Assembly: GCF_016862935.1 (NCBI RefSeq)
Contig: NZ_BONX01000015.1
Location: 1-44,100, forward strand
Reading direction: 5' to 3'
DNA: 44,100 nucleotides
Source: Plantactinospora mayteni
Lineage (GTDB): Bacteria; Actinomycetota; Actinomycetes; Mycobacteriales; Micromonosporaceae
The translations under genes and the position numbers were made by a program. Below, piece after piece: positions 7,470-43,072 of the stretch (position 1 is the stretch's first letter; every line of letters begins with the position of its first letter). Under the pieces are notes generated by a model. That model saw only the letters and a list, made by a program, of their open reading frames with translations, did not search any database and had not been told where the DNA came from.

Positions 7470-7559
7470 GGTGGTGTGTCCGAGTGGCCTAAGGAGCACG
7501 CCTCGAAAGCGTGTGAGGGTTTACGCCCTCCGCGGGTTCAAATCCCGCCGCCACCGCCA
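7470..7559 (+). tRNA. tRNA-Ser(CGA), intact, encoded CCA
   Basis: Acceptor GGTGGTG (7470-7476) pairs with CGCCACC (7549-7555); discriminator G at 7556 and CCA at 7557-7559. The anticodon loop CTCGAAA gives anticodon CGA, reading UCG. It has the long variable arm typical of tRNA-Ser (GAGGG...CCCTC) and T-arm GCGGGTTCAAATCCCGC. From 7501 onward its 3' half is part of the 95-bp direct repeat that bounds the island. Confidence 0.97.
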
Positions 7560-34631: not shown

Positions 34632-34720
34632 GGCACCCCCCGTGTGGCGTCACCTCGTGAACCTCCCCAGGGCCGGAAGGCAGCAAGGATAAGCGGGCTC
34701 TGGCGGGTGCACGGGGGGCC
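34632..34720 (+). ncRNA. ffs: Signal recognition particle RNA (4.5S type)
   Basis: Folds end to end: CCCCCCGTG at the 5' side pairs with CACGGGGGG at the 3' side. The apical domain contains the conserved CCAGGGCCGGAAGGCAGCAA element with the GGAA tetraloop that binds Ffh. It lies just before dnaX, its usual neighbour in actinobacteria. Boundaries are approximate to a few bases. Confidence 0.93.
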
Positions 34721-34972
34721 TTGTCTTCCCCCGAACGTCCCTGATCAGCCCTCTGGCCAGGCCCGAGGTCGCCGGCCCAGCCGGGGTACGGCCCAACCCG
34801 GCCCGGCCGACCAGGCGCGCCACACCACCCGCCCGACCATGATCACCCCGGGTCCGGCACCCACCACCCGGCCCGCGTGATCGACGTGAAAACGTCGGGC
34901 GCGCGTGACAACCTGGCACGCGGCAGCGCGGCACCGGGTGGAGAATGGCCCGGTCGAGAGGAGGCGGGACGA

Positions 34973-40981: not shown

Positions 40982-41986
40982 GTGTTCCGGTTCATCGTCA
41001 GACGCCTGTTGCAGCTGATACCCGCGCTCTTCGGGCTCTCCATCCTGTTGTTCATCTGGCTGCACCGGCTGCCCGGCGGCCCGGAGACCGCGATCCTGGG
41101 CGAGCGTGGCACCCCGGAGATGCGCGCCGCGATCCGGGACAACCTCGGGCTCGACGAGCCGGTCCTGGTGCAGTACGGCCGGTTCATGCAGCGCATGTTC
41201 CGGCTCGACCTGGGCACCTCGATCGCCACCAAGCGCGAGGTGACCACCGAGTTCCTGCAACGCTTCCCGGGTACCGTCGAACTGGCCACGACCGCGATGA
41301 TCATCGCGATCCTGGTCGGCATCCCGCTCGGCTACCTCGCCGCCCGCCGTCGCGGCCGGCTCCTCGACCACGTCTCGGTGGCCGGATCGCTGATCGGGGT
41401 CTGCATCCCGGTCTTCTTCCTGGCTTACGTGCTCAAGGCGATCTTCGCGGAGAACCTGCACCTCTTCCCGGCCAGCGGCCGGCAGGACCCGACGATCGAG
41501 GCGACCCGGATCACCAACTTCTTCGTCCTGGACGGACTGATGACCCGGGAGTGGGACGCCGCCGCCGACGCGCTCTGGCATCTCGTGCTCCCCGGCCTCG
41601 CCCTGGCCAGCATCCCGCTGGCGATCATCGTCCGGATCACCCGGGCGAGCGTGCTGGAGGTACTCGGCGAGGACTTCGTCCGGACCGCCGAGGCCAAGGG
41701 CCTGACCGAGCGGGTCGTACGCCGCCGGCACGTGCTGCGCAACGCCATGCTGCCGGTGGCCACCACGATCGGCCTGCTCACCGGCGGTCTGCTCTCCGGC
41801 GCGGTACTCACCGAGACGGTCTTCGCGTTCAGCGGCATCGGGGCGTTCATCGCCGACTCGATCAGCCAGCGGGACTATCCGGTGCTGATGGGCTTCATCA
41901 TGATCATTGCGGTGCTCTTCGTACTGGTGAACCTGCTGGTCGACCTGTCGTACAGCCTGATCGACCCGAGGGTGAGGGTCCGGTGA
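40982..41986 (+). CDS. Peptide ABC transporter permease, DppB type
   Basis: 334 aa, GTG start at 40982. Six TM helices in the OppB/DppB arrangement: N-terminal FRFIVRRLLQLIPALFGLSILLF, then the large loop, TM block FLQRFPGTVELATTAMIIAILVGIPLGYLAARRRG, and the EAA loop ITRASVLEVLGEDFVRTAEAKGLTERVVRRRHVLRNAMLPV that contacts the ATPase. Forms the channel with the DppC-type subunit. Its stop is overlapped by a 19-codon mini-ORF. Confidence 0.94.
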   Translation: MFRFIVRRLLQLIPALFGLSILLFIWLHRLPGGPETAILGERGTPEMRAAIRDNLGLDEPVLVQYGRFMQRMFRLDLGTSIATKREVTTEFLQRFPGTVELATTAMIIAILVGIPLGYLAARRRGRLLDHVSVAGSLIGVCIPVFFLAYVLKAIFAENLHLFPASGRQDPTIEATRITNFFVLDGLMTREWDAAADALWHLVLPGLALASIPLAIIVRITRASVLEVLGEDFVRTAEAKGLTERVVRRRHVLRNAMLPVATTIGLLTGGLLSGAVLTETVFAFSGIGAFIADSISQRDYPVLMGFIMIIAVLFVLVNLLVDLSYSLIDPRVRVR

Positions 41987-42042
41987 GCGCGAGGAATGAG
42001 CTTGCGAGTCCCGCAGTCGCGAACGAAGGCGGGCTCCGATGA
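41983..42042 (+). CDS. 19-codon mini-ORF 1, chained between dppB and dppC types
   Basis: GTG at 41983 overlaps the permease stop (GTGA) and the frame reads MSARNELASPAVANEGGLR then TGA (42040-42042), which overlaps the next mini-ORF start (ATGA). It shares AGTCGCGAACG and the CCGATGA end with mini-ORF 2, i.e. a diverged 56-bp repeat unit. Whether it is translated as a useful peptide or only keeps ribosomes moving to the second permease gene is unknown. Confidence 0.5.
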   Translation: MSARNELASPAVANEGGLR

Positions 42043-42098
42043 GAGGGCCGGCGCAGCGCGTGAGCACCGTAGTCGCGAACGGATGGTGGGCCCGATGA
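42039..42098 (+). CDS. 19-codon mini-ORF 2, chained to the second permease
   Basis: ATG at 42039 overlaps mini-ORF 1's stop; reads MRGPAQRVSTVVANGWWAR then TGA (42096-42098), which overlaps the DppC-type ATG at 42095. Same length (60 nt) as mini-ORF 1. AGTCGCGAACG lies at the same place in both units. Peptide function unknown; likely a translational relay. Confidence 0.5.
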   Translation: MRGPAQRVSTVVANGWWAR

Positions 42099-43072
42099 CG
42101 ATCACCGAACGGGCCAGGAAGAAGGCCGAGAAGCTCGACCGGCTCGGCGAACTCTCCGCGGCCCGCGACGAGGAGCGCGGCGTCAGCCTCTGGCAGGAGG
42201 CGTTCCGCCGGCTCCGGCGCAACCCGGCGGCCATCGTCGGTGCCGTCGTACTCGGCATCTTCCTGCTGGTCGCGATCGTCGGGCCGTTCTTCGTGCCGTT
42301 CGGGCCGACCGACACCATCGGGATCCGGGAGGGCCTGGTCAAGTCGGGCCAGGGCATCATCCCCGGCCCCTCCGGCGACCACTGGCTCGGCTTCGACCAC
42401 CAGGGCCGGGACGAGTTCAGCCGGCTGATCGTCGGGGCCCGGCAGACCCTGCTGGTCGGCGTGGTCTCCACGCTGATCGGTCTGGCGATCGGCGCCCTGG
42501 TCGGCGGCGTCGCCGGTGCCGCCGCCGGGCTCGGCGGGCGCTGGGGGCGCTGGGTCGACACCACACTGATGCGGATCGTCGACATGATGCTGGCGCTGCC
42601 GAGCCTGCTGCTCGCGGTCAGCATCGCGGCACTGCTCGGCGCCAGCCTGACCACCGTGATGATCGCGGTCGGCGTGGTCTCGGTACCGGTCTTCGCCCGG
42701 CTGCTGCGCGGCGCGATGATCGCCCAGGCGAACAGCGACTACGTACTCGCCGCGACCTCGCTCGGGGTACGCCGCTCGAAGATCGCGCTCGGCCACATAC
42801 TGCCGAACTCGCTGGCCCCGGTCATCGTGCAGGCCACCCTGACCCTGGCCACCGCGATCATCGAGGCGGCGGCGCTCTCCTTCCTCGGCCTCGGCAACCC
42901 GGACACGGCGATACCGGAGTGGGGCGTGATGCTCGCCGACGCGCAGCCGTACCTGGGCATCCGGCCGGCGCTGGCGATCTATCCGGCGGTCGGGATCATC
43001 ATCACCGCGCTGGGCTTCACCCTGCTCGGTGAGGCGATGCGCGAGGCCCTCGACCCGAAGCTGCGGAAGTGA
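42095..43072 (+). CDS. Peptide ABC transporter permease, DppC type
   Basis: 325 aa from the ATG at 42095, coupled to mini-ORF 2 by a 4-nt overlap. Cytoplasmic N-terminus (1-45), OppC N-terminal TM (NPAAIVGAVVLGIFLLVAIVGPFFVPFGP), HWLGFDHQGRDEFSRLIVGARQTLLVGVVST (Dpp/OppC signature), and the EAA loop VRRSKIALGHILPNSLAPVIVQATLTLATAIIEAAALSFLGLG. A start at 42083 is also in frame. Pairs with the DppB-type subunit; the ATPase gene follows after 6 nt. Confidence 0.93.
   Translation: MTITERARKKAEKLDRLGELSAARDEERGVSLWQEAFRRLRRNPAAIVGAVVLGIFLLVAIVGPFFVPFGPTDTIGIREGLVKSGQGIIPGPSGDHWLGFDHQGRDEFSRLIVGARQTLLVGVVSTLIGLAIGALVGGVAGAAAGLGGRWGRWVDTTLMRIVDMMLALPSLLLAVSIAALLGASLTTVMIAVGVVSVPVFARLLRGAMIAQANSDYVLAATSLGVRRSKIALGHILPNSLAPVIVQATLTLATAIIEAAALSFLGLGNPDTAIPEWGVMLADAQPYLGIRPALAIYPAVGIIITALGFTLLGEAMREALDPKLRK

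Follow-up and report, generated by a model that had tools for sequence, protein, structure and literature searches.

A short repeat that lies in two copies between a DppB-type and a DppC-type permease gene of Plantactinospora mayteni is, judging from its sequence, very probably a small dispersed element of the mycobacterial interspersed repetitive unit (MIRU) kind, translationally transparent and set before RTGA-overlapped start codons (ATGA or GTGA) in operons. The junction lies in the stretch of 44,100 nt analysed here (the window; positions 1 to 44,100 of contig NZ_BONX01000015.1, assembly GCF_016862935.1). There is no free base between the two genes, as the overlaps GTGA, ATGA and ATGA chain them to two 60-nt open reading frames (ORFs). 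An earlier reading made without database searches (the sequence-only reading) had described these overlaps and the 19-codon ORFs, and its coordinates are exact in the sequence. It had also taken both ORFs for diverged copies of one unit. A profile of seven copies from elsewhere in the genome (R2), built without both window copies to avoid circularity, bears this out, since it matched the window at exactly these two places, 41983-42031 (E 1.4e-16) and 42037-42088 (E 1.4e-6).

The 11-mer AGTCGCGAACG occurs once in each unit (42015-42025 and 42071-42081). It has two matches in the window at up to one mismatch, against a shuffle mean of 1.81, and thus is not rare there. Genome-wide we counted 11 exact copies versus one for the reversed control; these fall at seven sites, four of which are pairs 56-60 nt apart. 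A broader profile (R1, nine training copies including both window copies) gave 25 matches within 17 regions of the same genome at E<=0.01, and it matched in 7/7 genomes of the genus. At E<=1e-4, matches were present in 70 of 150 Micromonosporaceae genomes and in 31 of 199 genomes across the order, all 31 of them from this family; numbers in element-rich genomes are lower bounds, and weak matches may be lost. These counts agree with the earlier proposal of a repeat dispersed in this family. A pattern scan of named genomes with the 22-nt core returned at least 119 stretches, and the 80 loci among the matches listed belong to Micromonospora (73), Plantactinospora (2), Phytohabitans (2), Paractinoplanes (1) and unclassified Micromonosporaceae bacterium (2). 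The element appears confined to Micromonosporaceae, having been found only there in the searches made. No description of it in this family was found in the literature searched, where most subscription journals fell outside. It is often in tandem, with one to six units per site (seven by a looser count), and the unit number at shared sites varies between species from one to six. Single inserts measure 53-68 nt and tandem units are mostly 54-62 nt apart. The 56-bp unit proposed at first therefore holds for both window copies, but it is just one among several lengths elsewhere.

We analysed the sites in two sets. The genus set comprised 96 regions (17 from the genome itself and 79 from six relatives; the best 150 of 157 matches were used), which form 45 orthologous site families. 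The second set was made from 80 loci picked by the 22-nt core alone, mostly from Micromonospora, giving 87 sites. Without two Plantactinospora loci 85 sites remained, and nine lay too close to the stretch end, leaving 76 non-edge sites. These sites are independent of those in the genus set, although the core sequence of the element was what selected them. The number of copies between co-directional genes had been named as a check on the sequence-only reading, and the outcome is clear in both sets: 87/96 genus sites and 70/76 second-set sites have a co-directional gene on either side and carry the element in the sense orientation. At 46 of the 87 and 50 of the 70 co-directional sites, the upstream stop ends precisely on the fourth base of the unit.

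A further line of evidence is the codon phase. If the element is inserted before an ancestral RTGA, a length of 2 mod 3 means that its GTG frame stops exactly on the next RTGA, 0 mod 3 gives an in-frame run into the next gene and 1 mod 3 an out-of-frame run. The insert length mod 3 is set by the frames of both flanking genes and is independent of start choice. Our strict set was made up of 47 single-unit sites (27 from the second set and 20 from the genus) at which the upstream gene stops in the unit's RTGA; the remaining 134 of 181 sites were dropped, 73 as tandem, 40 because the upstream stop lay elsewhere, 14 for context, three for want of a start in range and four for want of a recognised core. 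Thirty-eight of these inserts were 2 mod 3, nine were 0 and none was 1. With one site per flanking-protein family (n=38) the counts were 31, 7 and 0 for phases 2, 0 and 1, with P values of 1.3e-9 for phase 2 and 2e-7 for phase 1. The frame was open at 47/47 sites, and 35 of the 38 phase-2 inserts end on RTGA. Copies elsewhere that ignore phase had been named as able to refute the sequence-only reading. Under a looser rule that demands neither a recognised start nor a core (n=54), single-unit copies kept phase, with 43 at 2, 10 at 0 and one at 1; the sole exception, L290, carries by our reading a second, truncated unit. Multi-unit sites were in phase 1 in 21 of 50 cases; 20 of these consist of two units, which matches the phase expected from 2+2. 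The spacing of neighbouring units in arrays, whose copies are not independent, was 2 mod 3 in 37 cases, 0 in 35 and 1 in seven. We infer that selection against the third phase causes the lack of phase-1 single inserts.

The lengths 56, 59, 62, 65 and 68 (or 57, 60 and 63) arise from differing bodies and spacers, such as 42+14, 47+12, 47+15, 45+14 and 51+14. Bodies of 42 nt take 14-nt spacers in 8/9 cases, and bodies of 47 nt mostly take spacers of 12, 13 or 15 nt. When the spacers were permuted among the bodies in 20,000 trials, phase 2 was reached at most 27 times out of 38, versus 31 observed, and phase 1 at least three times. Because differing bodies and spacers compensate to keep phase, the data point to selection on the translated frame, rather than to a single inherited length, and this selection would not act on the peptide. 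A functional product encoded by the mini-ORFs would be consistent with the frame being open at every single-unit site; it is nevertheless extremely improbable. The 3′ half, shared by bodies of 42 and 47 nt, is read in one frame in the former and in another in the latter (for example SPAVANE versus APQSRTK), so there is no common peptide and we rejected that reading; at the 0 mod 3 sites, moreover, translation would fuse the peptide to the protein downstream.

Does the stop/start relay seen in the window occur at other sites? The strict test accepted exclusively 4-nt RTGA overlaps with ATG or GTG starts, which made 52 of the 96 genus sites ineligible (nine for context, 34 for the upstream stop and nine without an RTGA start). 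Among the 44 eligible sites, 38 were chained stop-to-start by one to three ORFs, and five of the six unchained ones are 0 mod 3 inserts. The null rates were 0.44 for dinucleotide shuffles and 0.25 for frameshifts made by one- or two-base deletions. Counting one site per orthologous family, 22/25 were chained, versus means of 11.3 (shuffles) and 5.4 (deletions), and 22 was reached in 0/20,000 simulations. A Shine-Dalgarno (SD)-like tetramer lies 5-16 nt ahead of the next start in 42/47 single-unit copies, a raw count with no null for comparison. At the dppB-dppC junction the relay is unbroken in all seven genomes of the genus, with total inserts of 56 to 197 nt. Its ORFs have 19+19 codons in genomes G000 and G003, 19 in G001, 16+19 in G006 and 66 in a single ORF in G004; by eye we read 21 in G002 and 22+11 in G005. 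In the window, unit 2 is more diverged than unit 1, its 3′ end looks by eye like the G002 and G004 inserts, and it is probably the older copy.

We then considered an RNA or DNA site with a role in regulation or processing (a promoter, terminator or hairpin), with the mini-ORFs as by-products of GC-rich, stop-poor sequence. GC-rich DNA does open frames easily, shuffled inserts chain at rates of 0.44-0.64, and the available text of PMC4213456 reports promoter activity for MIRUs between senX3 and regX3. RNAalifold run on the first nine copies gave 12 weak pairs, two with changes on both sides, and a covariation term of 0.04. On 150 aligned copies, however, it gave 0 pairs and no consensus structure, single folds lay close to their shuffles (z -0.48, -1.33 and -0.62), and the phase-locked lengths and the compensation between bodies and spacers would be left unexplained. 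We consider such a site unlikely. Promoter-like sites and sense-strand terminators were sought in 41800-42300 and none was found, and Rfam at the gathering score gave no family in the same interval; a promoter or terminator within the insert was thus rejected. The sequence-only reading had called the element REP-like, after the repetitive extragenic palindromic (REP) sequences. This label does not hold, as the 150 copies have no conserved hairpin and the orientation is nearly fixed, with 1/96 sites antisense between genes. With single folds near shuffles as well, the REP or hairpin reading was discarded.

A comparison with orthologous operons without the insert had also been named as a check, and their junctions are mostly bare RTGA overlaps. 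In 36/48 orthologues without element-like sequence, from 13 site families, the downstream gene has an RTGA start in its own frame, against a background of 70/218 co-directional pairs in the loci analysed. Eleven of the 13 families show an in-frame RTGA at least once among their bare orthologues; it is present in 12/15 at dppB-dppC and in 3/3 at the ribosomal L3-L4 junction. The count left out L074, whose upstream gene was uncalled, and the element-like orthologues L285 and L273. The simplest reading of these sequences is that the element was gained at existing overlaps, with precise loss as the alternative. The orthologous and phase counts both agree with the proposal that the repeat inserts at a stop/start junction and carries a start and a stop in phase.

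These junctions also bear on the possibility that the insert belongs to DppC. The DppC frame is open upstream to an ATG at 41996, so that a protein longer by 33 residues is formally possible, with the mini-ORFs being incidental. This is very unlikely, as in genome G026, where DppB and DppC are 89-91% identical to those of the window (DppC 89%), the two genes share a bare ATGA overlap. Furthermore, upstream of the 325 shared residues the open frame ranges from 13 to 36 residues across the seven genus genomes, and the same element precedes unrelated genes.

At three sites with at least one bare ATGA relative (L069, L114 and L133), the filled site has GTGA at its 5′ end and ATGA at its 3′ end, consistent with the element supplying its own GTGA. 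The pattern is not universal: at dppB-dppC, ATGA opens the inserts of G002 and G006, and GTGA closes those of G001, G003 and G006. The sequence just ahead of the first RTGA is more like that ahead of the next RTG when both come from one site than when they come from different sites, with a suffix run of 1.12 versus 0.46 for single units and 3.17 versus 0.78 for the first unit of tandems. This repetition, which exceeds chance, is visible at L120, L128, L074, L136 and others. The likeness suggests a target duplication longer than RTGA in single units. In tandem arrays, some of the likeness would be accounted for by duplication at an AGG; that in single units would not.

We propose that this MIRU-kind element works as follows. 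It begins with its own RTGA, mostly GTGA, which serves as the stop of the upstream gene and as a start codon with an open frame behind it. The upstream stop would hand ribosomes to the mini-ORF, typically 18-22 codons per unit, which would end on the native RTGA and pass them to the downstream gene, so that coupling could be kept across several units. At a bare junction the SD sequence of the downstream gene would sit in the end of the upstream gene; after insertion it would face the start of the mini-ORF. Near its 3′ end the element carries an SD-like AAGG or GGAG ahead of the native RTG start. Translation would be passed on at each RTGA by reinitiation or local unfolding, the two coupling models given in the available part of the review by Brown and Wade (PMC12548453). 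From the sequence evidence we infer that the mini-ORFs are translated in vivo. The element is presumably mobile, and its role is probably that of a mostly neutral or selfish element whose translational transparency lets operons tolerate it.

MIRUs have reportedly been placed by Supply et al. (1997) between operon genes, in the orientation of those genes. By co-directional gene order the present element behaves alike (87/96 and 70/76 sites). In the description by Brown and Wade (PMC12548453), MIRUs seem to be mobile, have inserted at start codons and carry an internal ORF coupled at -4 nt; the likeness here lies in the 38/44 strictly chained sites and the 35/38 phase-2 inserts ending on RTGA. 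MIRU units are given as ~40-100 bp and dispersed over many loci in the accessible part of PMC2734929, with lengths of 77 and 53 bp in that of PMC4213456 (PMC3635867, likewise available in part, was a further source). Our element has units of 53-68 nt, 25 matches in its own genome and 45 site families, and the 77- and 53-bp MIRUs are also 2 mod 3. It shares tandem arrays of variable copy number (one to six units, differing between species) with MIRUs. The difference is the host family, as the order-search matches are all Micromonosporaceae, though the 199 genomes may include no MIRU-bearing species. By design the element is thus of the MIRU kind; common descent with MIRUs would be a separate claim. 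The idea that a repeat in an operon carries a coupled ORF is already known from mycobacterial MIRUs and not new. REP sequences, bacterial interspersed mosaic elements (BIME) and REPINs are likewise short, numerous, dispersed and mostly intergenic. REPs are extragenic palindromes, according to the accessible sources, whereas the conserved stem-loop of a palindrome is lacking here (0 pairs), orientation to genes is near-fixed and codon phase is respected. The palindromic elements of Rickettsia are small repeats that respect frames, insert within genes and become part of the protein. In contrast, the Micromonosporaceae element is intergenic, and the two neighbouring proteins mostly stay as they were.

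Several observations weigh against a translationally transparent element set at RTGA overlaps. The genes were called with a simple codon-usage caller built for this analysis. At 53/157 co-directional sites the upstream stop lies outside the RTGA of the unit, and these sites were excluded from the phase counts. Six sites fall inside a called gene (four genus, two second set), at eight the upstream gene is called on the opposite strand (four in each set), and one genus site is antisense between two genes. The nine single inserts of 0 mod 3 predict fusion rather than relay. When TTG starts and 1-nt overlaps were allowed, 69/75 sites were chained, and the null rates were high (0.64 shuffled and 0.56 frameshifted); by family, this looser test gave 33/36 versus 24.8 and 20.2. 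Bare orthologues of the L136 and L078 families are without any in-frame RTGA. Finally, part of the target preference is expected, because RTGA overlap is the commonest bacterial gene spacing, according to the available text of PMC12548453, and is present in 32% of background pairs.

The phase-locked lengths are evolutionary evidence for translation of mini-ORFs of ~20 codons between operon genes, and evidence that a stop/start relay can replace one overlap. Many filled and empty junctions, with several copy numbers, make these soil actinomycetes material for studying how translation is coupled, and how MIRU-type elements spread, in bacteria other than mycobacterial pathogens. For annotation, the element is a warning of spurious small genes and false N-terminal extensions. 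A wider reading, which we put forward tentatively as plausible but somewhat short of probable, is that of a second, independent class of translation-transparent mobile element, convergent with MIRUs, with machinery recognising RTGA junctions and phase kept by selection. If this holds, termination-reinitiation relays could be studied in hundreds of natural experiments within a single bacterial family.

Features at the junction between the two permease genes (ABC, ATP-binding cassette), in window coordinates
Feature	Position	Strand	Remarks	Basis
DppB/OppB-type ABC permease gene	40982-41986	+	stop TGA 41984-41986, within the first GTGA	domain matches
GTGA	41983-41986	+	permease stop overlapping start of unit 1	sequence
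Repeat unit 1	41983-42038	+	56 nt, representative of the dispersed element	profile without window copies, 56.2 bits, E 1.4e-16
Mini-ORF 1	41983-42042	+	19 sense codons and stop	sequence
AAGG	42026-42029	+	SD-like, 9 nt spacing to next ATG	sequence
ATGA	42039-42042	+	mini-ORF 1 stop overlapping start of unit 2	sequence
Repeat unit 2	42039-42094	+	56 nt, diverged copy	profile without window copies, 24.1 bits, E 1.4e-6
Mini-ORF 2	42039-42098	+	19 sense codons and stop	sequence
ATGA	42095-42098	+	mini-ORF 2 stop overlapping DppC start	sequence
DppC/OppC-type ABC permease gene	42095-43072	+		domain matches

Both flanking genes encode BPD_transp_1 permeases, with BPD_transp_1_N and OppC_N domains. 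As they fall below every NCBIfam equivalog cut-off, DppB and DppC are used here as type names. Elsewhere in the window, Rfam matched a bacterial small signal recognition particle (SRP) RNA at 34634-34723 and a tRNA at 7470-7556, both on the + strand.

Some individual sites deserve mention. L112 (G006:C1:6509900-6514900) has the element between the ribosomal L3 and L4 genes (Pfam), with a bare RTGA in three relatives. Four genus sites of one context class (L074, L122, L139 and L156) are a single orthologous family, and the flanks of L315 and L343 are similar to this site. At L074 we noticed by eye a 34-codon ORF, MVTEIGFVSLLVAGFGALAGCLVYLAVRISRGRW, that the caller had not recorded. It ends in the GTGA of the element, and its product resembles a small membrane protein. 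In another site family (L077, L111, L123, L141 and L161) tandem units, six of them in L077, run in frame into the downstream gene; the downstream protein of L077 would gain an N-terminal extension of ~120 residues if the upstream start were used.
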